A stretch of DNA of 64,000 nt, taken from assembly GCA_944358375.1 (NCBI GenBank), contig CALVQT010000004.1, positions 1-64,000 on the forward strand. Direction: 5' to 3'. Each line of letters begins with the position of its first letter. Positions within the stretch are counted from its first letter, which is position 1. This stretch comes from an uncultured Bacilli bacterium (GTDB lineage Bacteria; Bacillota_I; Bacilli_A; RF39; UBA660). The position numbers were made by a program, and so were the translations under genes. The notes beneath the pieces were generated by a model. That model searched no databases and had not been told where the DNA came from. It worked only from the letters and a program-made list of their open reading frames with translations. Positions 3,730 to 61,197 of the stretch are shown here, one piece after another.

Positions 3730-4059
3730 ATGGAAACAATATATAATAAATTAGTTAGAGATAAGATTCCAGAAATAATAGAAAATGATGGACAGAAAGT
3801 AGTTATAAGAAAATTAGATGACAATGAATATAAAATTGAACTTGGAAAAAAATTATTAGAAGAATACAACGAATTTTTAACTGCTCAAAATCAACATGAA
3901 AGACTTGAAGAACTAGCCGATATGTTAGAGATAATTTCTACCATTAGTAGTCTTGAAGAGGCCTCTTTGTCTTCCATTATTTCTATTATGAATGAAAAAC
4001 GCGAAAAAAGAGGTGGATTTACTAAAAAAATATTTTTAGTAAAAACAAAAAGTAAATAA
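3730..4059 (+). CDS. MazG-like / phosphoribosyl-ATP pyrophosphohydrolase-fold protein
   Basis: The N-terminal YNKLVRDKIPEII is the signature of a family of small all-alpha NTP pyrophosphohydrolases, and EEYNEF followed by EELADMLEI gives the ExxE and ExxD metal-binding helices of the MazG fold. At 109 residues it is a normal full length for the family. Members hydrolyse nucleoside triphosphates to monophosphates, often as house-cleaning or phage-related enzymes. Its ATG follows AAGGAGA. In this accessory region it may belong to a nucleotide-based system, but the substrate is unknown. Confidence 0.8.
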   Translation: METIYNKLVRDKIPEIIENDGQKVVIRKLDDNEYKIELGKKLLEEYNEFLTAQNQHERLEELADMLEIISTISSLEEASLSSIISIMNEKREKRGGFTKKIFLVKTKSK

Positions 4060-4368
4060 TATATATATTGCAAAGTAAACATGTCTTAACATAAATCAAA
4101 ATGAAATAAATTTAATAATAGAGTATTAAAGTTTAAAAATTGTTGAGTGTCTCTTAAGTTGATTATAAATAAATAATTATATATATTCTTTAATGAGAAA
4201 AATATTTTTTTATTTGCAAATCAGAGTAGAAAATATCAATTGTTTAACTAGGTCAAAAAATTTCATTATCCAGGTTATTTTAAAAAAGATCAATCAATTG
4301 GACTAAAATAAAAAAGACAATGCTATCTGGCTGAACTTGTCAATAAAAAGTAGACAATTAAAAGATAT

Positions 4369-5190
4369 TCATTTAAACCCTAATTGAGTTCTATATTCAA
4401 TTGGGGTTTTATATTTTAATGCGTAACTAGGTCTTAAATAATTATGATCGTATATAATCGCATTAATATATTTTTCAACAGTATCATAATCATTTTGATT
4501 AAAATCAATATACATTTCTTTCTTTAACCAACCATTTTTAGATTCAATTATTAGGTTATTTGTTGGAGTTCTTATTCTCGACATTGACCTTTTTATGTTA
4601 TAATCTTTATGTGCATTATTAAATGCCACTGAGGAATATATTGTGCCTTGATCTGAGTGAAAAATAGTCTCTTGGATTTTATATCCTCTTTTTATTTTGT
4701 TATTAAGCATGTCATCTAAAGCTGATTTATGATTAGACATACTAACTCCATGATAAAAATGTTTAACATCTGAACCAATTATAGAATCATCAAATGCATC
4801 TACATAATAAGTCCAATCATATCTTTGTCTTTTAAACCGAATCATTGTGGTATCAGATGTTATTTTTTCTAATGGTCTAGATGTTTTCCAGTTATTGTTA
4901 ATAAGATTTGGATATTTAATGGATTCATCACCAGGCTTTTTATAAACACTATAATGTCTAGCTTTGCTTCTAATTTTTAAAATTTTACACACTTTATGAA
5001 CTAAATTATCAGATACAATCCATCCTGTTTCTCTACGAATAATAACATTGATCCTATGATAACCATAACTCGGCTTTCTTTTATGAATATCTCTGATTAA
5101 TGGTTCTAAATCTTTACGATTTATTTCATATCTATTTAAAATATCTTTAGTTTTTAACCATTTATAATATCCACTTCTTGATATATTCAT
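4369..5190 (-). CDS. IS3-family transposase orfB (DDE integrase domain)
   Basis: This is the catalytic half of the transposase. The HTH_21-like region comes first (RKPSYGYHRI near residue 39), then the rve integrase core. The DDE residues are visible as SDTTMI, HSDQG and ESKNGWLK, the last with the usual K spaced after the glutamate. The frame is open upstream of the ATG to about 5310, where the frameshift from orfA would join it; the natural product is an OrfAB fusion. The C-terminal YNxxRPxxxLxxxTP segment of the family is complete. Confidence 0.9.
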   Translation of the reverse strand: MNISRSGYYKWLKTKDILNRYEINRKDLEPLIRDIHKRKPSYGYHRINVIIRRETGWIVSDNLVHKVCKILKIRSKARHYSVYKKPGDESIKYPNLINNNWKTSRPLEKITSDTTMIRFKRQRYDWTYYVDAFDDSIIGSDVKHFYHGVSMSNHKSALDDMLNNKIKRGYKIQETIFHSDQGTIYSSVAFNNAHKDYNIKRSMSRIRTPTNNLIIESKNGWLKKEMYIDFNQNDYDTVEKYINAIIYDHNYLRPSYALKYKTPIEYRTQLGFK

Positions 5191-5258
5191 TACTTCACAT
5201 AATGATTTAATTGAATATTCTTCGCTTAGAATTTGAACTATTTCAAATTCTTTTTGCT

Positions 5259-5608
5259 TTATTTCTTGAACACTACAACTGAACCATCTCCTTTCACAAG
5301 GTATCCTTTTTTTAATCGTTCATTCTCTATTCTTAATTTCATATTTTCATATTGAAGTTTTTCAATATCTGTTAAAGTTTTCTTATTTGAATATTTGCAT
5401 AATGAATTACCCGGTTTCTTTTTATTTTCTGAACCGTTTCTCACAAATCATTATAATTTTTTAACTATCTGTTTGTTATAGCGTGTCCAATTCCATCTTT
5501 ACATTCAATATCCCAACAACTTCTACCTTCAAGCATTTGCTTTATATATTTCAATTTTTCTTCTTTTGAGTAATATTTATTTTTTCCACCTTTAGGTCTT
5601 CCTTGCAT
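5259..5608 (-). pseudogene. IS3 orfA, broken
   Basis: Reading from ATG at 5608 gives MQGRPKGGKNKYYSKEEK and the start of a helix-turn-helix, then an in-frame TAG at 5465-5467 where a tryptophan would be expected before LKNYND. A one-base shift near 5444-5450 then moves the frame. The remaining part carries the coiled-coil (LQYENMKLRIENERLKK) and the seven-A slippery run at 5307-5313 (frame A_AAA_AAA) used for -1 frameshifting into orfB. With both lesions no full OrfAB can be made from this copy. Confidence 0.75.
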
Positions 5609-5681
5609 TTTTTCATCTTCTTTATTAAATTATACCAAAGAAAAAGTAAACACATCTTTTTGTGTCTACTTTTATTTTACA

Positions 5682-5703
5682 ACTTCAGCTATCTGGCATT
5701 GTC
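5682..5703 (-). terminator. terminator of the HD-domain gene, split by the IS
   Basis: On the minus strand the gene ends inside one arm of a hairpin (GACAATGC...CTGAAGT, 5703-5682). The other arm lies across the IS at 4337-4316 (TTCAG...GCATTGTC) and is followed by TTTTTT. Without the IS and one copy of ACT the arms would form a stem with outer GACAATGC/GCATTGTC and inner CTGAA/TTCAG helices, an intrinsic terminator. The IS inserted in the loop. Confidence 0.7.
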
Positions 5704-6795
5704 TTTCTTAATAAGTTTTTTAGTAGCTACCTCTTTGTAAGGTACGAATTGAAAATCAAAATATGTATAATGTCCACCTTTTGGATAATTTAAATACTCT
5801 GCGATTTGATTTGCTGCAGTCTCTGATATTTGATTTATTCTAACAACTCCATTATCAGTTTGAACCAATGGTACAATATAACGTGTTTTTGATTTTACAT
5901 TAACACAATATTTTTCATCAACAGGTATTGAACTTTTATAAACTTTATTTGCATTTAGAAATAGTTTAAAACAATCTGATAAATATTTATCTTCACATGT
6001 TAAAATTTTATCAATTACTTCTTGTTCAGATAAAGTATACAAATCTTCAATTGTTAAATAACCAGCATTATGCATTGACTTACACATGTCTGCTAAAAAT
6101 TGCATTACTATTCTATCTTTATCATTTACCCATTCAGGCCATAACTTTGAAATTATATCTATATATTCTTCGCAAACTTCTTTATCTTTAAAAGCAAGTT
6201 CTTGTATACCATTTTCATTTATAGTTATCATAATATTGTTATATATTTTTCTGATTTTATCTAATTCCCAAACTCTAAAAAAAGTTAATCCACTTGAAAA
6301 AGTATATTCAAATCTATCTGCAGATAACCTTGGTGTGTCATTATCAGCAATAGGATAAATTTTATAATCATCTACTTCTTCTAATTTTATACCATCTTTT
6401 TTTAGTAAACTCATGATTTTTGAAGAATTTCTAATAATATCAGAAGTTTTTTCTTCAGTAGATTCTTGAGTTTCTGAATCACCATTCATAAAATCTATAC
6501 AATGCTTAAATACAGGCGTAGCAATATCGTGGAATAGACCGGCTAATGTTTGTTTTTTATCGTGTGTAAAATGCCAAATAATTAAAGCAACCCCAATGCT
6601 ATGATCTAAATTTGAATACCAATATTTAACATTAAAACATTTAGAATAATCAGTACCACAACTCATACTAATTTTACTAATTCTCTTCATTTCAGGAGTA
6701 TCAATATATTCTAGTAACCATTTTGGAAATTCTGGGGATAGGATACTAAAATATTCTTTTATTTCATCATTTAAATTTTCGTAATATTTATTCAT
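5689..6795 (-). CDS. HD-domain phosphohydrolase (dNTPase-like)
   Basis: The metal-binding HD signature is complete: H65 in LDHSIG, H89-D90 in GLFHDIATP, and D160 in LSADRFEY. This spacing is that of HD hydrolases acting on nucleotides or deoxynucleoside triphosphates. At 368 residues it carries an additional C-terminal domain of unknown fold. It is soluble, with no signal or membrane segment. It is on the same strand as the radical SAM/HMUDK pair 2.7 kb upstream but separated by an orphan and a ruined gene, so a shared pathway is only a suggestion. Its 3' terminator was split by the insertion sequence. Confidence 0.8.
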   Translation of the reverse strand: MNKYYENLNDEIKEYFSILSPEFPKWLLEYIDTPEMKRISKISMSCGTDYSKCFNVKYWYSNLDHSIGVALIIWHFTHDKKQTLAGLFHDIATPVFKHCIDFMNGDSETQESTEEKTSDIIRNSSKIMSLLKKDGIKLEEVDDYKIYPIADNDTPRLSADRFEYTFSSGLTFFRVWELDKIRKIYNNIMITINENGIQELAFKDKEVCEEYIDIISKLWPEWVNDKDRIVMQFLADMCKSMHNAGYLTIEDLYTLSEQEVIDKILTCEDKYLSDCFKLFLNANKVYKSSIPVDEKYCVNVKSKTRYIVPLVQTDNGVVRINQISETAANQIAEYLNYPKGGHYTYFDFQFVPYKEVATKKLIKKDNAR

Positions 6796-6846
6796 TTTTT
6801 CACGTCCTTATATTATAAATAAACTTTTACAAATCTATTGACAAAA

Positions 6847-7510
6847 TCATTTTATTATAATAATTTGATTTTGAATTTCTATTTTTGTTATTTGTTCATT
6901 TTCGCATTTGTAATTTATATCGTAAAGCATTTGTTTATTTTTATCCACAATATCAACCGTCTTAAAACTCTCATAATCGTAATAAGTAATTGAAGTAAAT
7001 AAATCAAGTTTTTCTTTTGCTATATAATTAGAATATGCTTTATGATATATTTGATTAACATTTTCTCTCTTTAAAACTACATCTTTACAAGCAATTTAAA
7101 TATGACTATGCAATCTTTTAAAGATTTTTGTATCTGAAGATTTTAGTTATCTTATTATTTCAACATAATTAGGATGAGTTTTGACCTTCATATTTTCATT
7201 CATTTAATTAGTTAGCAAATTTAAATAAATATTTTTTAATTTATCTTTATCATAGGTATTTTAGTGCTTCAGTCATTAAACTTAATTTTTTAACTTACTT
7301 TTGGAATCTTCTAATCTATATTTAAAAAGTGTATTAGCCATTTTACTAAATATAATATTATTAAGTAGTTATACTACAGATTCATTTATTTCTTTGGTTT
7401 GTACTATGGTATCTTTTACAACATCATTATAAACATCTTTTCAAAAACCACTGCAACTTCTTTTGTAATCTCTAAAGTTTCTTCTACATAATATTTCTCT
7501 TAATAGTAAC
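6847..7510 (-). pseudogene. DUF4393-like gene, decayed
   Basis: On the minus strand, pieces of one protein follow one another with stops between: VEETLEITKE near 7490, then YNDVVKDTIVQTKE, then LEDSKSKLKN near 7300, MNENMKVKTHPNYVEIIR near 7205, and a final open stretch of about 80 residues to a stop at 6847. The early pieces resemble the amphipathic start of DUF4393 (Abi-alpha-like) proteins, some of which are linked to abortive infection. The family call is tentative; that the gene is broken is clear. Confidence 0.45.
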
Positions 7511-7919
7511 TATTTTATTATATAACCACAAAATTGGCAATATGTATTGAAATATTTTTTATTTTTATATAATAATTACTTTAATGTTATCTTATCACAG
7601 GATTACATTTAAATTATAAAAGAACTTAAACTTAACCAAAAATAGCAGAACTCATTTAAAATCACATTTACAAAAATAAAAAAGAAAAATTAAAGTTCTT
7701 CTATACACTAACTTATAAATTATAGAACCAACTAAAATGCTTAATAACATGTTTACTATACTTGAATATAAAGTAAATGATATAGAGCATAATATAATTT
7801 AAAATTTCAAATAAAAAATATTGTTAAACAAATTATTTTAAAGCTATGTTTTATAATAATTATGAAGAACTTTATAAACAATGCTTCATTGATAGAAAAA
7901 GTTATTATGTTTAATGAAT

Positions 7920-9008
7920 CTATTTTTTTAGTAATTTTTTTTGATCTTGTGTTGACGCTTTATCTAAACTAAATAATTCAGAATACAAAATCATTTTTCT
8001 AAATAATTTATTATCTTTTTTGCATCTTTCTTCTATTCTTTGTTTAATTTTATCTGATAATATTTCTTTTGGTATATTGACAATAAATCCACAATGAGGA
8101 CATACTTGATAATATCTATATAATGTATCATTAGGGTTTATAAATATTTCGTTTTCTTTAATAAGAAATGATTTTTCACAAGGATTAGTGTTTTCAGGTC
8201 TAATTAATCTTGTATTTGTGATTGACTTAAAATATTCATCTTCCAATTTACAATCTATTTCTAAATCGCAAGGTAATTCATCATGAAACATTAAATAAAC
8301 CTCTTGTTTTTCTCCTTCAGTAAATATTGATAAATTATTATCATAGTGCGGACCTTTAGCAATTGCTGTTATAAATGAATTTTTTCTAATTCCTAAGTCT
8401 TCTTTATTTCTAGATAATTTTGATTTATTTATATTAGTTGTTGGTAATACTATAATGAAATTATTCATATCTTTTATTAATAATTCTCTTCCACCATATA
8501 TTACTCTTCCAGTATTGTCATATCTAAATAACCTAAAATATTCATCAAGAACTTTCAACTTATTATTTTTGTTATTTGTATCTTTTATTTGATTATCGAC
8601 ATACTCACACACACTATGGAGTATAGTCTCAATATTTAAATTTGTTTTAATTATGCTATCCCTTTTATTTTTCTTCTCTACTAATTCTAACCCATGCTTA
8701 ACTTTTTCTAAAAATTCTTTATCATTTCTTTTGTTTTCAAGCGTTTGATAAAGAGTAGTTTCTTCAATTTCTTTATCAGATAATAAAAATTCTTCTAAAA
8801 TTTTATATAATTTTTTAAATTCAATATTATCAAAACCAATAAAAGGGTATTCGCACTTAAAATTATATTTTTCTTTCATTCTTTTTTTTCTATTTTGAAA
8901 TTCTTCTTTTGTTTCTTCATACATAAAAGGTGCTAAAATTAATGGTGCATTTTTATACAAATATTTATATCTTTTTATTAATTCTTCTTTTGCTTGTTCT
9001 AAAGTCAT
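7920..9008 (-). CDS. hypothetical protein (362 aa) with a zinc-ribbon-like CxxC
   Basis: I do not recognise this protein. It starts at an ATG behind GAGAGGTT. The first third is charged and helical (repeated Glu/Lys), the middle has a beta-rich stretch around YGGRELLIKDMNNFIIVLP, and the C-terminal third has CPHCGFIV near residue 308, one half of a possible zinc ribbon, with an isolated cysteine in NPCEKSF upstream. No signal or membrane segment is visible. Its own promoter and codon use like its neighbours suggest an expressed gene. It sits between an HD hydrolase and the HMUDK/radical SAM pair. Confidence 0.65.
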   Translation of the reverse strand: MTLEQAKEELIKRYKYLYKNAPLILAPFMYEETKEEFQNRKKRMKEKYNFKCEYPFIGFDNIEFKKLYKILEEFLLSDKEIEETTLYQTLENKRNDKEFLEKVKHGLELVEKKNKRDSIIKTNLNIETILHSVCEYVDNQIKDTNNKNNKLKVLDEYFRLFRYDNTGRVIYGGRELLIKDMNNFIIVLPTTNINKSKLSRNKEDLGIRKNSFITAIAKGPHYDNNLSIFTEGEKQEVYLMFHDELPCDLEIDCKLEDEYFKSITNTRLIRPENTNPCEKSFLIKENEIFINPNDTLYRYYQVCPHCGFIVNIPKEILSDKIKQRIEERCKKDNKLFRKMILYSELFSLDKASTQDQKKLLKK

Positions 9009-9033
9009 TATTAAACCTCTCTTTGTGAAATGT

Positions 9034-9042
9034 ATTATAGCA
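9034..9042 (-). promoter_or_regulatory. extended -10 promoter
   Basis: On the minus strand TG-C-TATAAT precedes the ATG at 9008 by about 25 bases. The -35 is poorly defined. Confidence 0.45.
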
Positions 9043-9550
9043 TATCTTAATTTTTTTCACTATACATTTATTATAATTTTAAAAAAAATCTGATTTTTAA
9101 GAAAATTAAAATATTAATTATATTCATTTAATCACTTAATAATTAATAAATGTATTAATCATATTATTTAAGCTAATACATATAAAGAAGTTATATTATA
9201 AATATTAATAAAAATTATTTTGAATTTTAAAATATTGAAAAAATAAATTTTGATATAGTAGTAAAAAATTTATAGTAGAAATAATTATTTGCTTGTTTAC
9301 AAATCTTTTCATTATTTTCGTTTATGCAATTGTTAAATAACTCTAGATAATAATCTATTAATTTTTTGCTGATTTTTTCATTTTAATACTTAAACATATA
9401 ATATCTTTTAGTATATTTTATTTTCTATTAACATATTCAAAAATGGCGTTTTACAGTATATCTAGATAATATTATGGATAATGTTCAAATTCTTGAGATA
9501 GTTTGCAAGAAAATAAACATATTATTTTTAAATTCTCAATGTTTATTTAA
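9043..9550. other. AT-rich stretch without an intact gene
   Basis: Nothing intact is visible. On the minus strand around 9240-9375 there is a short open stretch reading KKLIDYYLELFNNC and onwards for about 40 residues with no start codon in a good context; it may be the remnant of a gene. Confidence 0.4.
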
Positions 9551-10498
9551 TTAATTTATTTTTAATATTTTCCACTTTGATGGATAAATATAATTAATTT
9601 TATCTTTTTTTGGTACATAATGTTTTTTAATTTTTGTTCTATTTGATTTTAAATCTGGTAATGCTTGTCTACAATATTTATCTAATTCACAGAATATATT
9701 TTGACAATCTATTAATTGTAATTTTCTATTACCAATTCTTTTAAAATTTAAATTAAGCCTTTTAAATTCTTCATCTTGATGTTTATACATATATCTAATT
9801 ATATCTTCATTACTTAATTTACCCTTGTCAATAAAACACTTTTTAATTCCACGAAGTGAGCCGGGTCCAGCAACTGTAAATTCATCTTCTCTCCAATTAA
9901 CCACTTCACTATAATTAATATCAGTTACTAATTGATAAGCCATAAAATTCCCTATTAAAGGATAAGTTTTAATAATATTAAATGCATCTTCCATAGTTTT
10001 GCATTTTACTATTTCATCTTGTATTCTATCTTCGTTAAACATTTTATTAAGTAGTGCCAAATGATTATCATGTTTTCTATCATATCCAAATGCCTTATTA
10101 GCACAACTTATATAAGCATCATTATATATTTTAATACCATTTGATATAGCATTTTCTAATACTTTAGAATATTCTTTTACATTAAATGTTTTTAAAGTAA
10201 TATCCTCAAAATTATTTAATAATAATTCCCAGGTAGATTCTTTATTAAATAACTTAAATAACAATATTCTAAATAGCATATCTTCATCAGAATACTTTTT
10301 ACCATTATAAATAACATTTTTTAATAAATATTGGCTAACTCTATCATTAACTCTATAACTATTACAAAACTTATACTCTTGTAAGATTTTATCTTCAGTC
10401 CATGGAGCAGATTCTCCGTTTATTTTTTTCAAAAATATATTTTGTCTTTCACAAGCAAAATACCAATATAAATCATATACTTCTTGTCTTTTCTTCAT
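9551..10498 (-). CDS. HMUDK-helical / alpha-glutamyl-putrescinyl-thymine pyrophosphorylase-like protein
   Basis: The order of motifs matches the helical domain named after 5-hydroxymethyl-dU DNA kinase: YWYFACERQNI at residues 11-21, APWTEDKILQEYKFCN at 31-46, YRVNDRVSQYL at 48-58, a LLFKLFNKESTW block, then VTDINYS and VAGPGSLRGIKKCF near 210. Relatives act in phage pathways that hypermodify thymine in DNA or are predicted pyrophosphorylases; the bacterial role is not established. It starts five bases after the radical SAM gene, whose last codons contain its GAGG ribosome binding site, so the two are translationally coupled. Positively charged C-terminus (KIKKHYVPKKDK) could bind nucleic acid. 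Confidence 0.75.
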   Translation of the reverse strand: MKKRQEVYDLYWYFACERQNIFLKKINGESAPWTEDKILQEYKFCNSYRVNDRVSQYLLKNVIYNGKKYSDEDMLFRILLFKLFNKESTWELLLNNFEDITLKTFNVKEYSKVLENAISNGIKIYNDAYISCANKAFGYDRKHDNHLALLNKMFNEDRIQDEIVKCKTMEDAFNIIKTYPLIGNFMAYQLVTDINYSEVVNWREDEFTVAGPGSLRGIKKCFIDKGKLSNEDIIRYMYKHQDEEFKRLNLNFKRIGNRKLQLIDCQNIFCELDKYCRQALPDLKSNRTKIKKHYVPKKDKINYIYPSKWKILKIN

Positions 10499-10502
10499 AT
10501 TC

Positions 10503-11507
10503 TTACCTCATACACTTTGGATCTCGTGAATTAATACATCTTTTTAATGTTAGTACTTTATCTTTGTTATTAGTATAATTTGCTATTATTTTTTGACCTA
10601 TACAGCCACTTTTACAAATTGAATATTGTTCACAAGAAGAACAAGAATTATCAGTATTAAAATTTCTAATATTACTAAAGTATTCAGAAGTATACATATC
10701 CATCAAAGAATTTTCACTTATATTTCCACTAATACCTAATTCAGTAAAATATTTTATAGAATCACAAGGATAAGCGATTCCATCAAAGCCAATTATCATT
10801 ATTTCATCAGCAATAATACAAGGACTATTTTCGATTCCTAATATATTCCAAGGACTACCAAGTCTAATTCTATTTTTGTCAGCAAAATTTAAATAAAAAT
10901 TTTTAATATCTAGTAATTGTTCTTTTGATAAATCCATATAAGTTGTACCTTTTCCATGAGGGACAAATCTTAATAAACTTACCTTATCAAAATATTTTTT
11001 ACTTTTAAATGCACTTATTGAACTAATTATAACATCTTTAAATTTAGAATATGAATCTGTGGAAATAGTATAATGAAATCCCAATTTTGCATTATTGTTT
11101 TCAAATGTTCTATCAAAAAAATATTTAATATCATAACTAGAAATATCTGTTTCATCAGATAGTGAATCAGCAAGTGAATAAATAATTTTGTTTAATCCTA
11201 AATCAATTAGGTTTTTATATTTGTTTAATGTTTCATCGGTCCTATAAGCAAATGTATAAATAGTTGATTTCATTTTTAATCTTGAAGTTAATTCAATAAG
11301 TTCAGAAAGTCTGTCATACATTAAAGGCTCACCACCAGTAAAAACGATAGTTTCAACACCCATCATTTTTGCTTCATTAATAATTTTATAAATACTATCA
11401 AAGTCTAATTCTTTTAGATTATCAATATTATTAGTAGCATTACTAGAGCAATGCTTGCAATTCCTAGCACATTTATTAGTTAATTCTATTTTTATTTCTT
11501 TTAACAT
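10503..11507 (-). CDS. radical SAM enzyme with SPASM-type C-terminus
   Basis: CARNCKHC at residues 13-20 is the CxxxCxxC motif that binds the [4Fe-4S] cluster used to cleave S-adenosylmethionine, followed by FTGGEPLM, the GGE SAM-binding motif. The C-terminal third has PCIIADEIM, YPCDSIKYF and SCSSCEQYSICKSGC, cysteines typical of a SPASM or twitch domain with auxiliary clusters. SPASM enzymes modify peptides or other large substrates. No candidate precursor peptide lies beside it; the partner is instead the HMUDK-like gene directly downstream and coupled. The substrate is unknown. ATG follows GGAGTGATT. Confidence 0.88.
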   Translation of the reverse strand: MLKEIKIELTNKCARNCKHCSSNATNNIDNLKELDFDSIYKIINEAKMMGVETIVFTGGEPLMYDRLSELIELTSRLKMKSTIYTFAYRTDETLNKYKNLIDLGLNKIIYSLADSLSDETDISSYDIKYFFDRTFENNNAKLGFHYTISTDSYSKFKDVIISSISAFKSKKYFDKVSLLRFVPHGKGTTYMDLSKEQLLDIKNFYLNFADKNRIRLGSPWNILGIENSPCIIADEIMIIGFDGIAYPCDSIKYFTELGISGNISENSLMDMYTSEYFSNIRNFNTDNSCSSCEQYSICKSGCIGQKIIANYTNNKDKVLTLKRCINSRDPKCMR

Positions 11508-11539
11508 ATAATCACTCCATAAAGTATAAATGTGTAATT

Positions 11540-11568
11540 ATTATATACTAAATTTCACAAATTTTCTA
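11540..11568 (-). promoter_or_regulatory. promoter of the radical SAM/HMUDK operon
   Basis: On the minus strand TATAAT (11545-11540) precedes the start codon by about 32 bases. A weak -35 (TAGAAA) lies 17 bases upstream, inside the second repeat copy. Confidence 0.4.
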
Positions 11569-11705
11569 TATTGCTATTGAATTTTGATAATGATTCATAT
11601 ATAACTTTATTAGAAAAAAAATAAAAATTGTAACTTGTGTGTTGTTCGCATTATTGAAAGAAGTACTCATACTTTTGTATGGGTTTTACGAGAACTAACA
11701 AATAA
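11561..11705. repeat. diverged direct repeat, copy 2
   Basis: Partner of 70-205, same orientation, overlapping the promoter region of the radical SAM operon. The conserved parts are ATTCATATATAA and TAACTTGTGTGTTGTTCGC. A small hairpin (AATAAT/ATTATT, 11719-11735) follows, as in copy 1. The two copies bracket the accessory genes from the recombinase remnant to the radical SAM gene. Confidence 0.5.
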
Positions 11706-11739
11706 AAATAACCATAGAATAATTTGAGATTATTATAAG

Positions 11740-12300
11740 TGTTACAAAAATATAAAAATATTTAAATTGAATATTAAGTCTATAAATAATAAATATATTT
11801 ATTTCAACAATATTAATATATCAATTGATGACCTGTATAAAATTATTATTAGTAATTATTCTTATTTTTAATCTTATTTTCTTATGTATAAATAATAATT
11901 TTTATTTAAAGACGGTTTAAATGAATGAAATAAAAAATTTATATTAATGATAATTTAAAAATAAATTATTAGAAATTAATCTTTTGCAATTTACTTGCAT
12001 AAAAAATGTAATACACGAAAATTTTAAATAATGGTATTTTTAGTAATTTGTAGTTTTTAATACAATGTAAATTTGTCATTTTTTAATAAAAGAAAAAATA
12101 AAAGGTGAAATTATTATTAAGAAAATTAATATTAATAAAAAATTAAAAATATCGGTTATATGTTTAGAAATGATTATTTTCATATAGCAACAAATATTAA
12201 TAAAAAGCAATATGAAATATAAATAATTTACTATAATAAAAAAAATAAATTTGATAAAGATAAATACATTTTACTGCAAATAATCAGTTAAAATATGATA
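11740..12300. other. AT-rich intergenic stretch, no gene seen
   Basis: Both strands are dense in stops. I see no recognisable gene remnant, RNA gene or clear hairpin with a T tail here. Confidence 0.5.
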
Positions 12301-12322
12301 AAATGATATTAGGTGATTACTT

Positions 12323-12928
12323 ATGCAAAAAGTATTTTTATATTTATATCCAATTGAAGAATATACTAAAGTGTTCGAAAATGATAATTCATTAGCAGTA
12401 TTAAATGAGTGTATCCAAAAAAGATATAGAGAAAAAGGATATCAAGTTATATTTGCACTATATCCTGATAAAAATTTATATGGAGTTATACCTCAACCAA
12501 ATGATAGGATAATATATACGGATATTACTTTTAAAGAAGCTAGTGGATATAACGAAGATGGGACTAAAAAAGAAGCTAAAAATATAAAATATCCAAATGA
12601 ACAATATTTAATTAATCAACTTGGCTTTGTAGATAAAATTGTTATTGGAGGATATCATGCACAAGATTGTGTTAGAAGAGTTTGTGAATGTGCTTTAGAT
12701 TGTGGAATAAATTCTATTATTGATTTAGATATGACAGACTTTTTCTTTCATTTATACAAAAATAAAGATTATTTTAAAATTGAGGAATATAGTCCAATTA
12801 GATATAAAGAGCATATGATTAATAAAATGAGTATGTATGGTGATGAATTTGCAGAAAGGATTTTTAATAGAAATTATTCTAGTCCTGCTTATGGATTTAA
12901 TAAAGAAGAAAACAAGAAGATGAAATAA
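12323..12928 (+). CDS. hypothetical protein (201 aa)
   Basis: Not recognised. It starts at ATG behind TTAGGTGATT. The central part, DKIVIGGYHAQDCVRRVCECA and the following SIIDLDMTDFF, has the look of an alpha/beta hydrolase-type core with a cysteine where isochorismatase-like cysteine hydrolases place their nucleophile (around residue 116), but the N-terminal part does not fit that family. No signal or membrane segment. It stands alone between AT-rich gaps at the edge of the accessory region. Confidence 0.65.
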   Translation: MQKVFLYLYPIEEYTKVFENDNSLAVLNECIQKRYREKGYQVIFALYPDKNLYGVIPQPNDRIIYTDITFKEASGYNEDGTKKEAKNIKYPNEQYLINQLGFVDKIVIGGYHAQDCVRRVCECALDCGINSIIDLDMTDFFFHLYKNKDYFKIEEYSPIRYKEHMINKMSMYGDEFAERIFNRNYSSPAYGFNKEENKKMK

Positions 12929-12940
12929 GGTAATTGTTTT

Positions 12941-13080
12941 ATGAATAAGATATGTGAAAAATTGATTAATAAATTAAAAAATGTTGATAATATTGTTGCA
13001 TTATTAAAAAATGTTATTTTTATCAAGAAACATCATTTATGAAATCTAATACTATTTTTGAAGGAATTGTTAAAAAATAG
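12941..13080 (+). pseudogene. fragment of a small gene
   Basis: An ATG at 12941 opens 33 codons (MNKICEKLINKLKNVDN...) to a TGA; the neighbouring frame then continues with FYQETSFMKSNTIFEG to TAG at 13078. The join looks like one protein broken by a frameshift. The start has a distant resemblance to nucleotidyltransferase N-termini, too short to assign. The rest of the gap to 13244 shows nothing. Confidence 0.3.
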
Positions 13081-13244
13081 TAACATATCAAAGAGAAAAT
13101 ATATAAATAACTTTACTTACTATTGATAGACGTAAAGTTATCGTAAAGTAAATTTTAAAGTAAAATGAAGTAAACTATATAGAATTTATTAAATTAATTT
13201 TAATGACAAGCAAGAATATATGTTTTAAAAGTGGGAGATGATTA

Positions 13245-13778
13245 ATGATGAATTTGTTTATTAATGGTAGTAATAGAGAACAAAATTGTTATAAAATTTT
13301 AAAAGATATAAAAAAGGAAAATGATAAATTAATATCTTTGTCTCACAAAGACATTAAATATTGTTTAGGATGTAATTCGTGCGTAAAAAAACTGGATAAG
13401 TTTTGTGTATTAGATGATTATGTGAGTCAAAATATATATCAGAAAATAATTGATTCAAATAAAATTATTATTGCTAGTCCAATATATATGAGTAGTATTA
13501 CAGGATTATTAAAAAATGTAATTGATAGATTATATCCATTTTACCATCATAATTATTTTAATAACAAAGAAATTTATTTGATTTTATCTGGTCAAGGTAC
13601 TTATGAAGATAATGTAGAAGAAATTAATGATATTGTTAAATATTTTTTAGGGATTAGTGAATGGATGATTTTTAAATTTACATTTTTAGATTATTTTTGT
13701 AGTGGAAGTTCACAAGATGATAATAATATTAATTATGAAAATAAAATAAGTAAAATTAAAGATATACTTAATAAATAA
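13245..13778 (+). CDS. NAD(P)H-dependent FMN reductase / flavodoxin-fold protein
   Basis: A flavodoxin-like fold is shown by the N-terminal FINGSNREQN phosphate-binding loop, the YCLGCNSCVKK cysteine motif near residue 44 and the ASPIYMSSITGLLKNVIDR segment that contacts flavin. Proteins with this GCxxC motif belong to the iron-sulfur flavoprotein-like branch that reduces quinones or other electron acceptors in the cytoplasm. At 177 residues the length is normal. The first ATG (13245) has GGGAG at the right distance; a second ATG follows at 13248. A terminator overlaps its stop. Confidence 0.8.
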   Translation: MMNLFINGSNREQNCYKILKDIKKENDKLISLSHKDIKYCLGCNSCVKKLDKFCVLDDYVSQNIYQKIIDSNKIIIASPIYMSSITGLLKNVIDRLYPFYHHNYFNNKEIYLILSGQGTYEDNVEEINDIVKYFLGISEWMIFKFTFLDYFCSGSSQDDNNINYENKISKIKDILNK

Positions 13779-13806
13779 AAAAACACAAAATTGTGTTCTT
13801 TTTTAT
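13776..13806 (+). terminator. rho-independent terminator (bidirectional)
   Basis: AACACAA...TTGTGTT stem flanked by A and T runs, just at the stop codon of the FMN reductase gene. It also faces the convergent gene at 13854. Confidence 0.75.
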
Positions 13807-13853
13807 TGCTTAAAATTTGAATGAGAAAAGATTTATAAATACTTTTTTGGTAA

Positions 13854-14150
13854 TTAGAATTTATTATTTTGTAGAACAAGACGAATTTCTTTATTGTAAT
13901 CTGTAATTGTTCCATAAACATCTATTAATCCTTTAGCAATAATTTTTGCTTTTTCATGTGCGTCTTTACCTCTTATTATTAAAAGAGATTTAGAGTTTAC
14001 ATATAAATCATTACCATCTATTAAAGTTAATTTGCATTGTTTACCATCATTTTCAGAAAAAGCCAAATCAATATCAACTAATAAAGCATTTCCATTTTCA
14101 ATTATAATAGCTACTGCTGGTTTTTTGACTATATCAATCATTTTTTGCAT
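13854..14150 (-). CDS. hypothetical protein (98 aa)
   Basis: Not recognised. It is a compact, mixed alpha/beta-looking cytoplasmic protein with no membrane segment and a single cysteine (GKQCKLTL). The frame uses an ATG at 14150 or MIDIV at 14141; no strong ribosome binding site is seen for either. Codon use is like that of neighbours. It is convergent with the FMN reductase gene. Confidence 0.55.
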   Translation of the reverse strand: MQKMIDIVKKPAVAIIIENGNALLVDIDLAFSENDGKQCKLTLIDGNDLYVNSKSLLIIRGKDAHEKAKIIAKGLIDVYGTITDYNKEIRLVLQNNKF

Positions 14151-14467
14151 GTATTATAACATATTTTAAGATGATAAAAAATATAAATATATGCAATGAT
14201 AATATTTCTAAATAATTTACTTAATAAATATTAAATACTTATATTTATTTTATTAAAGTATATTATACAATATCATCAATTATTGTATGATTAAAAATAA
14301 TTATAGTTTTTATAATATTATAAAATAAACAAAAAAGTCTTTATAAAGTCTTCTTATTTTATATTAATTAATAATAATTCTTTATATTAATAAATAAATA
14401 TTGTATAATAAAATTAACATAAAGGGGTTATATATTATTTATTAGTAAATAATAATAATGTAATATT
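14151..14467. other. AT-rich intergenic stretch
   Basis: No gene is visible. AAAAAAGTCTTTATAAAGTCTTCTT near 14332-14355 can form a small hairpin. The stretch ends in the promoter at 14468. Confidence 0.4.
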
Positions 14468-14496
14468 TTGAAATTTTTAATAAAATATAGTATAAT
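14468..14496 (+). promoter_or_regulatory. sigma-A-type promoter
   Basis: TTGAAA (14468-14473), 17-base spacer and TATAAT (14491-14496), 32 bases ahead of the start codon at 14529. It should drive the three genes 14529-17882. Confidence 0.75.
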
Positions 14497-14528
14497 ATTT
14501 AAAACCAAGGGAAGGTGTTTATTTTAAA

Positions 14529-14993
14529 ATGAAAAAAAGAAAAGGGCGTAATAGTCAAGACTATATTGTTTTATGGGTATTACTTGGAATTTTAGCTGTC
14601 TGTTTCGTTATAATAGGATTTATATTTTTTAAAAATTTTTATTATGGTATTGGAACTGATAAATATGGTGATAGATTAGATGGAATAGAATCATATCCAT
14701 TAAGTAAAACTTTAAATGATGATATTGCATCAATTTATAAAGATGAAAGTAGTGTTGGTAGTGTTAATATAGAAGTTGAGGGAAAAATTATTTACATTAT
14801 TATAGATTTTAAAGAATCTATTAAAGTAAGTGAGGCTGAAGATTTAGCTATTAAATCACTTGATAAGATAGGTGAGAAGAATTTAACATTTTACGAGCTT
14901 CAATTTATTCTTACTTATTCTGGTAGTGAAGAAAATGAAAATTTTCCAGTTTTTGGCTCAAAAAATCCAAATAGTTTAAAGGTAGTATGGTGA
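14529..14993 (+). CDS. hypothetical single-pass membrane protein (154 aa)
   Basis: A basic N-terminus (KKRKGR) precedes one membrane helix at about residues 13-35, leaving a 120-residue outer domain of alternating strands and helices. No family recognised. The gene is separated from the diguanylate cyclase gene by five bases and shares its promoter, so it may be an accessory of that sensor or simply the first gene of a housekeeping operon. Confidence 0.65.
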   Translation: MKKRKGRNSQDYIVLWVLLGILAVCFVIIGFIFFKNFYYGIGTDKYGDRLDGIESYPLSKTLNDDIASIYKDESSVGSVNIEVEGKIIYIIIDFKESIKVSEAEDLAIKSLDKIGEKNLTFYELQFILTYSGSEENENFPVFGSKNPNSLKVVW

Positions 14994-14998
14994 TTTAA

Positions 14999-17014
14999 AT
15001 GAAGGCTAAAAAAAGAAAATATATTGTTGTATCAGTTATAATCATATTAGTACTTATTATAATATTTTTATCAACACTTTATTATATTTCTAGTACTATA
15101 AATAATTATTCATATGCAGAAAAAAAATGGATAAATAGTAATTTAACAACATCTTTTGATGTTTATGTAGAACCAAACAATCCGGTATTTTCAAATAATG
15201 GTAGTGGTGTTTTTTATGATTATTTGACGGCTTTAAAAACAGATACTGGTTTAAATTTTAATATAGTAACTACAGATACTTCTGAAATAGATTTAGTTAA
15301 TAAAAACGGCGTGGATGATGATGATGTAATATTTTATAAAGATCATTATATTGTTATTGGTAATAATGATATAGATGATATAGAAGATTTAAATTATAAT
15401 ACAATTGGAATTTTATTAAATGATCAAGATGTTATAGGATATTATTTGACTGAATACAATCAAATCGTTTATAGAAAATATAATAATTTTGATGATTTAA
15501 AATTAGCTCTTGAAAATAATCAAATAAACTATATGATTATACCTATGTATAAATACATAGATGAGATAATAGAAAATGATTTTTCTATAGTTTATCATTT
15601 GGATGGCTTATATTCATATTATTGTTTAGATTTTAATTTAGACAATATGAATTTAAAAAGTATAATGTCTAAGTTTTATAATAAATGGCATAATAAGTCT
15701 AATGAAGAAATTAATACTTTATTTTTAAATGAATATTATACTGTTAAAAATTATACTGAGCTTGAAAAAGCATCTATTAATGATGAAGATTTTATAGTTG
15801 GATATATTGATAATTTACCTTATGAGGGAAAAATAAGTAATGATTTTACAGGACTTACTAATACATTTTTAACAAGATTTTCTAATATGACTGGAGCAAC
15901 TTATAAATATATTGAATATGAAAATATTGATGAATTATCAGATGCATTATCTAATCAGAAAATAGATCTTGCACTTAATTATTATTCACTTAGTAGTGAT
16001 AATTATGTTAATAGTAGGAATCTTGGAAGTAGTGAATATGTAGTTCTTGCTCATGTTGATAATAATATAGTAGTAAATTCTCTATACAGTTTGAAAAATA
16101 TAAATGTTGATATGCTTGCTAATATGAATTTAAAATATAATATGGCAAGTAAAAATTTATTTGAAATAAATGATTTTTCATCACTTGATTCAATGTTTAA
16201 AAATATAAATGAAAACTCAATTATTATAATAGAAAAAGAAGTGTATGATTATTATAAAGATAATAAATTAAAGAAATATAGTATAAGATACACCGATAAT
16301 GTTAGATTAAATAATTCGTTTTTATTAAATAAAAATAATGAGTCATTCAATGAATTATTTGATTTTTATTTAAGTACACTTAGTACTAATGAGGTTAGAA
16401 ATGAAAGTGTTTATCAAGTAATAGAAACATTAAAAAATAATAAAGTATTTAATTTTATTGTTAGTAATTTAATTTATATAGCAGCGATTTTATTAATTAT
16501 TTCATTTATTGGTTATGCTTTTATTAAAAAAATATTATCTGATAAAAAAACTAAAAAGGAAGATAGATTATATTATTTTGATGTTATGACTAATTTAAAA
16601 AATAGAAATTATTTAAATGATTATATTGATTCTTGGTCATCTACTAAAGTTTATCCACAAGCAATAATTGTTATTGACATTAATAAATTAAAATCGTTGA
16701 ATGATAAGTATGGTCATGAAATTGGAGATAATCAAATAAAAGCAGTTGCTAGTGTTTTAATTAAAACTCAAAAAGATAATTCTGAAATAATGAGAACTGA
16801 TGGAGATGAGTTTATTATTTATTTAGTAGGGTATGATGAGAAAAAAATAGCCACATTAATACACAAATTAAATAGAGAAATTACATCATCTTTGCCAAAT
16901 AAAGAATATGGAATATCTATTGGATATGCAATGATATTGAATGAACAAACTACTATTGATGATGCTATAAATGATTCATTAACTATGATAAAAAAATCTA
17001 AATCAAATAGGTGA
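14999..17014 (+). CDS. membrane sensor diguanylate cyclase (solute-binding domains plus GGDEF)
   Basis: Domain order: membrane helix at residues 8-30, two periplasmic-binding-like halves (roughly 45-250 and 255-470, with typical DFKAL-type strand patterns), a second helix at about 482-503, then a GGDEF domain from about 523 to the end. The catalytic motif at residues 599-604 reads TDGDEF, i.e. DGDEF in place of GGDEF, a substitution found in some active cyclases. The preceding IDINKLKSLND and YGHEIGD match the GTP and metal sites. It probably makes cyclic di-GMP in response to an external ligand. It lies between a small membrane protein and yihY. Confidence 0.8.
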   Translation: MKAKKRKYIVVSVIIILVLIIIFLSTLYYISSTINNYSYAEKKWINSNLTTSFDVYVEPNNPVFSNNGSGVFYDYLTALKTDTGLNFNIVTTDTSEIDLVNKNGVDDDDVIFYKDHYIVIGNNDIDDIEDLNYNTIGILLNDQDVIGYYLTEYNQIVYRKYNNFDDLKLALENNQINYMIIPMYKYIDEIIENDFSIVYHLDGLYSYYCLDFNLDNMNLKSIMSKFYNKWHNKSNEEINTLFLNEYYTVKNYTELEKASINDEDFIVGYIDNLPYEGKISNDFTGLTNTFLTRFSNMTGATYKYIEYENIDELSDALSNQKIDLALNYYSLSSDNYVNSRNLGSSEYVVLAHVDNNIVVNSLYSLKNINVDMLANMNLKYNMASKNLFEINDFSSLDSMFKNINENSIIIIEKEVYDYYKDNKLKKYSIRYTDNVRLNNSFLLNKNNESFNELFDFYLSTLSTNEVRNESVYQVIETLKNNKVFNFIVSNLIYIAAILLIISFIGYAFIKKILSDKKTKKEDRLYYFDVMTNLKNRNYLNDYIDSWSSTKVYPQAIIVIDINKLKSLNDKYGHEIGDNQIKAVASVLIKTQKDNSEIMRTDGDEFIIYLVGYDEKKIATLIHKLNREITSSLPNKEYGISIGYAMILNEQTTIDDAINDSLTMIKKSKSNR

Positions 17015-53682: not shown

Positions 53683-53716
53683 TTTTGTGTATAAATGATT
53701 TGGGGTGAAAAATTAT

Positions 53717-55576
53717 ATGAGTTGGATATTATCTCCGTTGATTGCTATATTAATATATGTTGATGCTCTTATATATACATTAGTTTCGTATGTATATAAG
53801 TTATTTATGTTGGTATGTCAAATAAATTTTAATTCTTTAGCTGCAATAATTGGACCATTAATCGATAGATTAGAAGCCGTAATTATGGTTTTTATAATGT
53901 TTAAATTAGGTATAGCATTAATTCAGCTTTTATTAAAACCCGAAGATACTCCAACCGTAGGATCTAAATTAATAAAAAATATTTTTATTGTTGGAATTAT
54001 GCTAATTTGTTATAATTTGGTTTTTAGTATTTTAAATGAAGTTAGTATGTTAATTATAGGTGTACCAGAAGGTTATTCGTTTACTACACTTAATTCAATT
54101 GCAAATGTAACTGATGTAGAAGATAATGGGTTAATTAATAGATTTATATTTGGAGAAGATTCCAATATAGGAGAGGTAGGAGATTTTATAGCTCTTAAAA
54201 TGTTTGGAGTATTTCTAAGGGATGCTGCAGATGAATCACAATCAACCTATTTAGAAAATGCTGTAATAGAGGGTGATACTTATAATTTCTTTAATGCCTA
54301 TACTCTGGCAAGTGAAGTAAATAAAAATGTATTATATACTCCATTTATAAGTGGAATTTTGGGCATTTATATGATTTATTGTATTGGTTCAGTTGTTATT
54401 GAGGTTGCTGTTAGAGTCTTTAAATTATTGGTTTTACAATTAGTTGCGCCTGTTGCAATAATAACAAAACTTAATGATAAAAGTGATATGTTTAATAAAT
54501 ATACAAAATTATATTTTTCTACATATACTTCTGTATTTTTTAGAATTTTTTCAGTTTTAGTCATAAATGTTTTTATTAGCAAATTTATATTGAATCTTGA
54601 TACATTTTTTGGCAATGCCGTTTCTCAAACTACAGGAATTACTAAATTATTCTTATTAATAATTGTAGTTGTAGCAGGACTTAAATTTATTAAAGATTTA
54701 CCTAATTTGTTAAAAGAGTTAACAGGACAAGATTTTGGTGGTTCAAGTCCATCATTTGGTGGATATATGAGTGGCTTAATAGGTGGTGGATTTGGCGCTA
54801 TTGCTGGTGGTGTTAGTGCATATAAGGCTGGAGCTGGTAAATCTGGAGTATTTGCTAATATTGCTGCTGGAGGAGTTGGCGGATATAGAGCGGGTTCTCA
54901 AGGTGATTCGATAAGTAAAAAAATTGCAAATATAACGGGAAATGTTTCAAAAGGAACACAAAGAGCACAAAATTGGGCACAATATGGAAGTGCATTAAAT
55001 GCTGGAAGAGCAAAATTAGAAAGAATGACTGGAGTTGGAATATCTCAAGATAGACAAATTAATCATAATAATGCAGTTATTTCTGCCGCTGATGAATATG
55101 ATAAAGCTCAAATAGAAGCAATTAAAGATATTAAAATGGGTTCTGGTGAAGGTAGCATTGCTTCAGAGCTTGTAGGATTTGATGGAAATTTTGCTGATGT
55201 TAAATTTGGTGATAATAAAGATGCTTTTGCTGAGAAGATGTTAGAATATAATACTGATTATATTAATGAAAAAGCTGCTTTAGAAGTTGCACAAAGAAAT
55301 GGTGATGAAACTGCAATAGCAACTGCTATGGCTAAAGTGACAGATGCTAAAAATCTAGCAATAAAAAGTGCCAGCGATGTTTATGATAAATATAAATCTG
55401 CTGCAAATAATGTTAATATTGATGCTAAGCGTACTGAATTAGAAAATCTTGCTGGTAAACAAATTGTAAAAGATGGTGATAAAATAGATGTTAAAGAAAC
55501 TAAGAAGAAATTTAATGAGATGACTCAACGGATACAAAATACACAATCTTACCAAAGAACTCACAAGGAGAAATAA
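53717..55576 (+). CDS. VirB6/TrbL-like conjugation membrane protein
   Basis: Seven to eight membrane helices over residues 1-330, then a glycine-rich low-complexity segment (SFGGYMSGLIGGGFGAIAGG near 350) and a long charged helical tail. This architecture is that of TrbL/VirB6-type channel proteins in type IV secretion systems of Gram-positive conjugative elements. The ATG at 53717 is preferred; a GTG at 53705 is in frame. The tail (residues 440-619) is rich in Ala, Asp and Lys and may be cytoplasmic coiled coil. Confidence 0.8.
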   Translation: MSWILSPLIAILIYVDALIYTLVSYVYKLFMLVCQINFNSLAAIIGPLIDRLEAVIMVFIMFKLGIALIQLLLKPEDTPTVGSKLIKNIFIVGIMLICYNLVFSILNEVSMLIIGVPEGYSFTTLNSIANVTDVEDNGLINRFIFGEDSNIGEVGDFIALKMFGVFLRDAADESQSTYLENAVIEGDTYNFFNAYTLASEVNKNVLYTPFISGILGIYMIYCIGSVVIEVAVRVFKLLVLQLVAPVAIITKLNDKSDMFNKYTKLYFSTYTSVFFRIFSVLVINVFISKFILNLDTFFGNAVSQTTGITKLFLLIIVVVAGLKFIKDLPNLLKELTGQDFGGSSPSFGGYMSGLIGGGFGAIAGGVSAYKAGAGKSGVFANIAAGGVGGYRAGSQGDSISKKIANITGNVSKGTQRAQNWAQYGSALNAGRAKLERMTGVGISQDRQINHNNAVISAADEYDKAQIEAIKDIKMGSGEGSIASELVGFDGNFADVKFGDNKDAFAEKMLEYNTDYINEKAALEVAQRNGDETAIATAMAKVTDAKNLAIKSASDVYDKYKSAANNVNIDAKRTELENLAGKQIVKDGDKIDVKETKKKFNEMTQRIQNTQSYQRTHKEK

Positions 55577-55597
55577 ATAAGAAAGGAAAAAAGAGAT

Positions 55598-55933
55598 ATG
55601 AATCAATATATAATACCGGCTAATTCAAAAAGAAGTCAATTAATATTTAGTATATTTACTTGGACAGATATTGCTATTGTAATTGGGGGGTCATTTATTT
55701 CTTTATTGTTAATGCTTATTATATCTGGAGATGAAATTTATATGCTGGTTATTAAATTATTACCATTAGCAATAGCACTTTTTTTGGTAGTTCCTATACC
55801 AAATTATCATAATGTGCTTATATTTATTAGAGAAGCAATGTTATATATAATGTCAGATAAAGAATATATATGGAAAGGATGGTGTGCTACAAGCGATATT
55901 TATGACGAAGAAGTTGGAAAAAAATCAAACTGA
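55598..55933 (+). CDS. PrgI/VirB3-like protein
   Basis: At 111 residues with an N-terminal YIIPANSKRSQLIFS and two adjacent membrane helices (about 24-44 and 50-70), it fits the PrgI family, the small VirB3-like subunit that precedes VirB4 in Gram-positive secretion operons. It starts behind AAGAAAGGAAAAA. Its last 32 bases overlap the next frame. Confidence 0.78.
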   Translation: MNQYIIPANSKRSQLIFSIFTWTDIAIVIGGSFISLLLMLIISGDEIYMLVIKLLPLAIALFLVVPIPNYHNVLIFIREAMLYIMSDKEYIWKGWCATSDIYDEEVGKKSN

Positions 55934-56459
55934 AAATTGGTTACCTATTAAAGGAATTCAAAATGGTGAAATAATTTTGGATAATGGTGTTCGAGTAACT
56001 GGGGTTAAGGTAAGACCTAGAAACATATTTATCCTAGATTATGATTCACAAAATAATGCTATATTTAATTTAAGAAATTTTTATAATACTATAGATTATC
56101 CTTTTTGGTTAATTGTTTCAGATAGACCAGTAGATATTAATGTTTATCTTGCCCAATTAAAATTATTGTTTAATTCAGTACAAACTCAAGCTATTAGAAA
56201 GTTAGTAAGAGAGGATATTGATAAAGCTAATTTATTTATGAGCAAGGAAGTAAGTGTAACTGATACTGAATATTTTATACTATTTAAAGATAAACGTCCT
56301 GAAATGATTCAAAAAAAGATTCAAAATTTAGTTTCTGGTCTTGCTAGTGCAGGATTGCAATCAGCACAAGTTAGTAATGATGATTTAAGAATTTTAATTG
56401 ATGGATTTATGAATGGTGGAGATACCACTAAGTTTGGAACGGTGATGAGTACGATATGA
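55902..56459 (+). CDS. TrsD/TraC-like conjugation protein
   Basis: A 185-residue soluble protein starting around MTKKLEKNQTE inside the end of the prgI-like gene. NWLPIKGIQNGEIILDNG and FYNTIDYPFWLIVSDRP resemble TrsD/TraD of Gram-positive transfer regions, which is encoded just before the VirB4 ATPase. No ATPase motif is present. The ribosome binding site is weak, so translation is likely coupled to the upstream gene. Its stop overlaps the VirB4 ATG by four bases. Confidence 0.65.
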   Translation: MTKKLEKNQTENWLPIKGIQNGEIILDNGVRVTGVKVRPRNIFILDYDSQNNAIFNLRNFYNTIDYPFWLIVSDRPVDINVYLAQLKLLFNSVQTQAIRKLVREDIDKANLFMSKEVSVTDTEYFILFKDKRPEMIQKKIQNLVSGLASAGLQSAQVSNDDLRILIDGFMNGGDTTKFGTVMSTI

Positions 56460-58246: not shown

Positions 58247-58262
58247 AAGTTCCTCCTTTTCT
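58235..58262 (+). terminator. hairpin with T run inside the secretion operon
   Basis: GGAGG (58235-58239) and CCTCC (58252-58256) pair across the virB4 stop codon, followed by TTTTCT. It looks like a partial terminator that would lower expression of the downstream genes. Confidence 0.55.
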
Positions 58263-58276
58263 AAAGGAGAAGTAGT

Positions 58277-61183: not shown

Positions 61184-61197
61184 TAGGGAGGAATATA

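Follow-up and report, generated by a model that had tools for sequence, protein, structure and literature searches.

The window analysed here, 64,000 nucleotides of a contig from an uncultured Bacilli bacterium (CALVQT010000004.1), carries on its minus strand a radical SAM/SPASM gene (hereafter RS) followed by a gene of the PF18723 family (hereafter HM). Our results indicate that RS and HM are a real, conserved, tightly coupled and mobile gene pair, far beyond what chance would produce, and that the family to which HM belongs is linked to thymine-type bases. The families of both components are already known, their pairing is minimal and the mechanism is one that we infer. We propose, at a probability of roughly 0.35, that the pair is a two-gene accessory cassette making a two-component base-modifying unit, in which HM would bind or present a thymine-type base and RS would carry out radical chemistry. 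The features concerned are as follows, in window coordinates.

10503..11507, minus strand: RS, radical SAM/SPASM enzyme of 334 aa, the upstream gene (PF04055, E 9.8e-17; PF13186, E 2.3e-8; structural model)
9551..10498, minus strand: HM, PF18723 (HMUDK_hel) protein of 315 aa, the downstream gene (PF18723, E 6.9e-107; AlphaFold2 model)
9550..11649, minus strand: stretch with DNA similarity to the closest relatives, comprising both genes and upstream sequence of about 140 bp or less (window 4001-16000 compared with 80 loci by blastn)
10506..10509, minus strand: GAGG (cctc on the plus strand), putative HM ribosome binding site in the last RS codons, 7 nt before the HM ATG (sequence read by eye)
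11540..11568, minus strand: putative promoter TAGAAA-17-TATAAT, upstream of RS (consensus scan and alignment)
11448..11471, minus strand: RS C13-x3-C17-x2-C20, radical SAM cluster ligands (invariant in 16 aligned sequences)
10512..10820, minus strand: RS SPASM part with C230, C248, C289, C292, C298, C302 and C332 (PF13186 at residues 230-293; alignment)
10340..10372, minus strand: HM motif K43-F44-x-N46-xx-R49-xx-D52-R53, with F44, N46, R49 and D52 identical in six phage homologues (alignment)
9848..9922, minus strand: HM D193 and GPG(211-213)xxxG217, the same in six phage homologues (alignment)
9674..9691, minus strand: HM C270-E271-xx-K274-Y275, the same in six phage homologues (alignment)

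A sequence-only reading of the window had described two coupled genes at these positions, the first a radical SAM gene with additional C-terminal cysteines and the second of the PF18723 type, and this description was borne out. The ribosome binding site that it placed inside the end of RS also stands, but not the five bases that it counted between the genes, since the RS stop and the HM start are 4 nt apart (10499-10502). The promoter call upstream of RS is weak on its own, as the consensus scan returned 23 promoter-type sites where shuffled sequences gave an expectation of 28.8; a similar sequence also aligns upstream of RS in loci L008, L010, L011, L012 and L025.

Conservation of the pair was examined in the best 80 of 128 confirmed HM relatives from a scan of genome contigs (L001 to L080), a set biased to close relatives. 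In 36 of the 80 loci RS immediately precedes HM on the same strand and in 42 it is missing, the remaining two (L073 and L080) being too short at the contig end to tell. By the coordinates of the open reading frames (ORFs), 34 of the 36 paired loci have a short overlap or a gap no longer than 12 nt, and in 15 of them the genes are exactly 4 nt apart; the exceptions are L008, with a gap of 54 nt, and L033, which has an HM ORF truncated at the start. RS is split into two ORFs in two paired loci (L013 and L068), and tblastn with RS (E <= 1e-3) found no RS remnants in the RS-free HM loci. A more even sample of 191 genomes (the order sample) was centred on G005, a genome picked for having the RS-HM pair. 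PF18723 was above its cut-off in 21 of these genomes and RS (E <= 1e-40) was present in four, with HM adjacent in every one, so that the recurrence of the two genes as neighbours, on which the sequence-only reading had staked its case beforehand, was indeed observed. HM occurs without RS in 17 of the 21 HM genomes of this sample, and in a class sample of 391 genomes HM and RS were each found solely in the centre genome. Pairwise identities of RS and HM are correlated over 35 pairs (Mantel r 0.93, a value that none of 999 permutations reached).

Around the pair, the similarity of the DNA to that of the closest relatives extends over the two genes and about 140 bp, as for a small accessory cassette; the other blastn matches listed for window 4001-16000 are two short stretches, in L009 and L023, and the HD gene discussed below, in L004, L030, L034 and L068. 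When RS is placed on the HM tree, about ten gains or losses are needed, of which well-supported branches force at least four in a careful tree, from which L073 and L080 (of unknown state) were left out, and one in a larger quick tree, which leaves out L073 and L075-L080 and has some loci entered twice. The RS of the window is closer to those of L007, L008, L010, L011 and L012 (89-90% identity) than to those of L001-L005 (78-80%), whereas HM shows the opposite; since the nearest relatives are reversed, swapping occurs.

HM alone is also mobile and behaves as a single-gene insert. In nine of 19 genomes of the order sample it lies between a tRNA_edit (PF04073) gene and a YgjP-like metallopeptidase (PF01863) gene, separated from them by about 12 bp at most or overlapping them slightly, and in a tenth (G043) only the YgjP-like gene is beside it; the Pfam names of these genes come from two loci, and the remaining loci were assigned by BLAST. 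We considered the tRNA_edit/YgjP operon as a partner of HM and rejected this, as empty sites exist: the two genes are joined without HM in L125, L127 and L128, against L101 and L103-L110 with HM in one clade, and the location is read as an insertion site. G005 carries two RS-HM copies, of which one (L091:4580-7853) is flanked by two partial copies of one gene (MLDSDVAMLYHY..., which we take to be ORF6N-like), as though recombination at that gene had brought it in, and the second is on another contig. A truncated RS of 243 aa without HM is seen in G004 (L089:1744-2475), near what is presumably a REP-associated transposase gene.

The affiliation of HM is clear. Residues 6-284 align to profile positions 2-280 of 281 in PF18723 at 357.4 bits (cut-off 25), a match to which the sequence-only reading had also committed itself. 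The family is very large, with at least 8000 relatives scored, and at E <= 1e-3 the database holds 4950 relatives of HM and 451 of RS; the few names listed for HM relatives are putative DNA base hypermodification protein and nucleotide kinase domain-containing protein. The AlphaFold2 model of HM (predicted local distance difference test, pLDDT, 92.3) matches the helical domain of the 5-hydroxymethyldeoxyuridine (5-hmdU) DNA kinase of phage SP10 (F8WQ30) with a TM score of 0.82 and an E of 4.7e-15, model against model, and 15 residues are identical in all six aligned phage homologues (R18, F44, N46, R49, D52, F185, D193, G211, P212, G213, G217, C270, E271, K274 and Y275). This fold and these residues support the link to phage thymine chemistry that had been drawn from the sequence. 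The predicted fold is helix-hairpin-helix (HhH) glycosylase-like, and in comparisons of model folds it resembles HhH DNA glycosylases and the DUF2419 queuosine salvage enzyme. HM differs from both in that a PDB sequence search (E <= 1) gave no match to it, and glycosidic cleavage by HM is putative.

Matches to HM were found by tblastn in 490 of 50,697 phage records, all below 60% identity, those listed being about 23-35% identical; a scan of viral contigs with HM found no relative, which, given these 490 matches, means only that there is no close one. In six of the seven phage regions viewed (Montesquieu, LuckyBarnes, Goe26, PAKlein3, K474 and MP1412) the annotation includes a thymidylate synthase (TS) gene close to the PF18723 gene, and in the Salmonella phage region none is annotated within 7 kb of it. 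Goe26 carries the kinase domain as a fusion, and in PAKlein3 (with a weak PF18748 score) and MP1412 the kinase gene is just upstream; in the phage regions scanned for them, Pfam identified PF18748 or P-loop kinase genes and ADDT genes. A passage of PMC9599517 describes TS as a constant companion, in the M6-like system, of aG/PT-PPlase1, which we treat as PF18723 since this profile is matched by phage genes annotated as clade 1. According to a passage of PMC6449724, 5-hmdU in DNA is phosphorylated by 5-hmdU DNA kinase. Taking these papers together with the background on the family, the helical domain probably handles the base in DNA.

The partners of the phage genes were sought around HM by tblastn with four TS queries, with the kinase, ADDT, PLP, Nmad5 and HD genes of MP1412, and with the partner genes, except SLOG, of the distant loci L075-L080 described below. 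No match to TS, the MP1412 kinase, the MP1412 ADDT (PF18724-type), PLP, Nmad5 or the MP1412 HD protein was found in L001-L074 or in the window, at BLAST sensitivity and within locus DNA only, a search that overlooked the window's own distant HD protein. The phage pathway is therefore not reproduced near HM in these loci. At genome level, PF00303 (thymidylate synthase) was unmatched in 21 of 30 HM genomes, in a search that did not include ThyX and in genomes that may be incomplete, and in six of the nine RS-bearing genomes tested; PF18748 was matched in none of the 30 HM genomes, though control genomes gave no match either. From the lack of TS, kinase, ADDT and PLP matches near HM and of PF00303 in six of nine genomes, it follows that RS is the sole chemistry-bearing partner seen. 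In comparison with the thymine-hypermodifying phages (SP10, ViI-type and M6-type; aGPT-Pplase clade 1), HM shares the full-length PF18723 domain, the fold and the core residues, but it is found on bacterial contigs, at low identity, alone or paired with a SPASM radical SAM enzyme, and no 5-hmdU kinase, TS-like hydroxymethylase, ADDT or PLP gene is detected near the pair by tblastn.

A partly similar layout is that of the operon of the M6-like Pseudomonas phage MP1412, in which a radical SAM gene accompanies the kinase and PF18723 genes, and which also has an HD-type (YfbR-like) gene. However, the radical SAM protein of MP1412 is a 480 aa protein annotated as COG1533 photolyase, has no SPASM match, scores 22.1 bits against the Pfam cut-off of 29.5 (E 1.8e-4) and has no BLAST similarity to RS (E 0.68), and the operon differs further in holding ADDT, PALP, kinase, Nmad5 and TS genes.

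RS is above the Pfam cut-offs for both PF04055 and PF13186, and these profiles, the CX3CX2C motif and the SPASM cysteines place it among the radical SAM/SPASM enzymes. In an alignment of the window RS with 15 relatives, C230, C248, C289, C298, C302 and C332 are invariant and C292 is nearly so. The folds closest to the RS model, which is itself only moderately reliable (pLDDT 74.6, with low values in the SPASM part), are those of SuiB, PqqE, BlsE and viperin, with SkfB and anSME also matched. BlsE and viperin presumably act on nucleosides or nucleotides, substrates that we take partly from entry titles. RS shares with the SPASM enzymes (SuiB, PqqE and BlsE) and the viperins the barrel, the CX3CX2C motif, the cysteines of the SPASM enzymes and the closest folds, but differs from them in its association with HM and in its NCBIfam scores, which are far below the cut-offs of all 25 models listed out of 83 matched. 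RS does not belong to the prokaryotic viperins (pVip) by NF038283, at 36.7 bits against a cut-off of 180. In PADLOC no family matches HM, and the pair fits no known anti-phage system model, the only matches of RS being pVip-type, with the pVip match spanning residues 5-103.

In the proposed two-component unit, HM would bind DNA and turn out a thymine-type base, or would bind the base as a nucleotide, a role modelled on that supposed for the helical domain in the phage kinase. RS would replace the phage kinase and hydroxymethylase, with radical SAM chemistry on the presented base, most simply at the C5-methyl group; modification by RS of a base presented by HM would be the simplest account of the pair. 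The patchy, mobile distribution would suit involvement in conflicts with phages or other elements, and the pair may have a DNA- or nucleotide-modifying function and an anti-phage role. A narrower version, in which HM flips thymine in DNA and RS functionalises its methyl group in one radical step that replaces the hydroxymethylase-kinase route, the cassette serving as a mobile anti-phage or self-marking element of bacteria, is rather doubtful. A minimal bacterial version of two genes with one obvious catalyst poses the testable question of what the helical domain does without a kinase. Should the pair prove to modify DNA, modified thymine would have a radical SAM route outside phages; should modified phage DNA instead be its target of attack, base-directed defence would gain a new type. 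A search of PMC returned no paper on a PF18723/SPASM radical SAM pair, although a prior mention in Iyer 2013, Burroughs 2015/2020 or Lee 2018/2022 is possible, and no experiments on the RS-HM pair were found in the literature searched.

Weighing against the two-component unit, the frequency of RS-free HM genes shows that HM also has work to do apart from RS. HM could be a stand-alone defence protein whose target in invading phage DNA is thymine in 5-hydroxymethyl- or hypermodified form, which it would excise or otherwise attack, with RS as an optional add-on, a possibility that we regard as rather unlikely. It would agree with the RS-free loci and genomes counted above, with the patchy occurrence of HM and its single-gene insertion at the tRNA_edit/YgjP-like site, with the predicted likeness to HhH glycosylases and with the lack of a detected TS-like gene nearby to make a self substrate. 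It would also agree with the surroundings of six distant HM loci (L075-L080, 50-54% identical to the window HM; assemblies of Bacteroidetes, Gammaproteobacteria, Treponema and Ruminococcus), which hold varying combinations of one to four TIR-like (ThsB-type TIR), SLOG LD_cluster2, MazG_C, Nmad2, Dcd-like and TS-like genes. These clusters have HM in common with our pair but lack RS, and their partner genes, all but SLOG being queried, match nothing in L001-L074. Such nucleotide-modification domains, the aGPT-Pplase domain included, are listed in a section of PMC13092281 among predicted, unvalidated defence systems, and a glycosylase-based defence against 5-hydroxymethylcytosine (5hmC) phages is reported in PMC13160076, the text of which mentions neither hydroxymethyluracil (hmU) nor HMUDK. 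On the other hand, a stand-alone HM leaves RS unexplained, the phage relatives sit in gene sets that make modified DNA, and no PADLOC model matches HM. We know of no glycosylase activity in the PF18723 family, which also counts against this explanation. So does the failure of two of the six phage homologues to keep E204, the position aligned by eye, from glycosylase motifs, to the HhH catalytic aspartate; that assignment was itself dropped.

Alternatively, the pair might act on free nucleosides or nucleotides, with HM acting in the way of the DUF2419 queuosine salvage hydrolase, to which it is structurally similar, or binding a nucleotide for RS, and RS making a viperin-style modified or antiviral nucleotide. 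We consider this unlikely. Most improbable is that RS, as most SPASM enzymes do, matures a protein or peptide, either HM or an unseen small peptide: the SPASM domain, the matches to SuiB, PqqE, SkfB and anSME and the presence of HM C276 in 38 of 39 RS-bearing rows against 29 of 54 RS-free rows (some loci twice; L073 and L075-L080 left out) speak for it, but the link of C276 to RS has one independent pair only on supported tree branches, no residue of HM is cleanly linked to RS, RS has no N-terminal, precursor-recognition extension before the barrel, and no small ORF was seen kept in the cassette, whose similarity to its relatives stops at HM on one side and some 140 bp upstream of RS on the other (a distant precursor being possible).

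The sequence-only reading had set the pair in an accessory region with, among others, an HD hydrolase and a zinc-ribbon-like protein; neither is consistently linked to the pair, and membership of either in a system is not supported. The HD protein is below the Pfam cut-off (17.9 against 22 bits) and has no PDB sequence match at E <= 1. In L004, L030, L034 and L068 a relative of it is found no more than about 2 kb from HM, with a weak one (33% identity) about 7 kb away in L016, and as a third component it was rejected because HD (E <= 1e-30) is found in 85 of the 191 order-sample genomes, yet in only four of the 21 with HM. The zinc-ribbon-like protein has no Pfam match, and BLAST recovered no relative of it from the 80 loci; likewise, the ORF at 12323-12928 has no relatives there and no Pfam match. 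An Rfam scan of the window gave no family at the gathering threshold. A MazG-like ORF (3730-4059) is 5.5 kb from the pair, beyond a transposase gene with HTH_21 and rve domains (4369-5190, about 4.4 kb downstream of the pair) that we take to be IS3-like. Further along the window, a run of genes at 53705-61989 resembles parts of a conjugation or type IV secretion apparatus, including, by eye, a VirB4-like ATPase.
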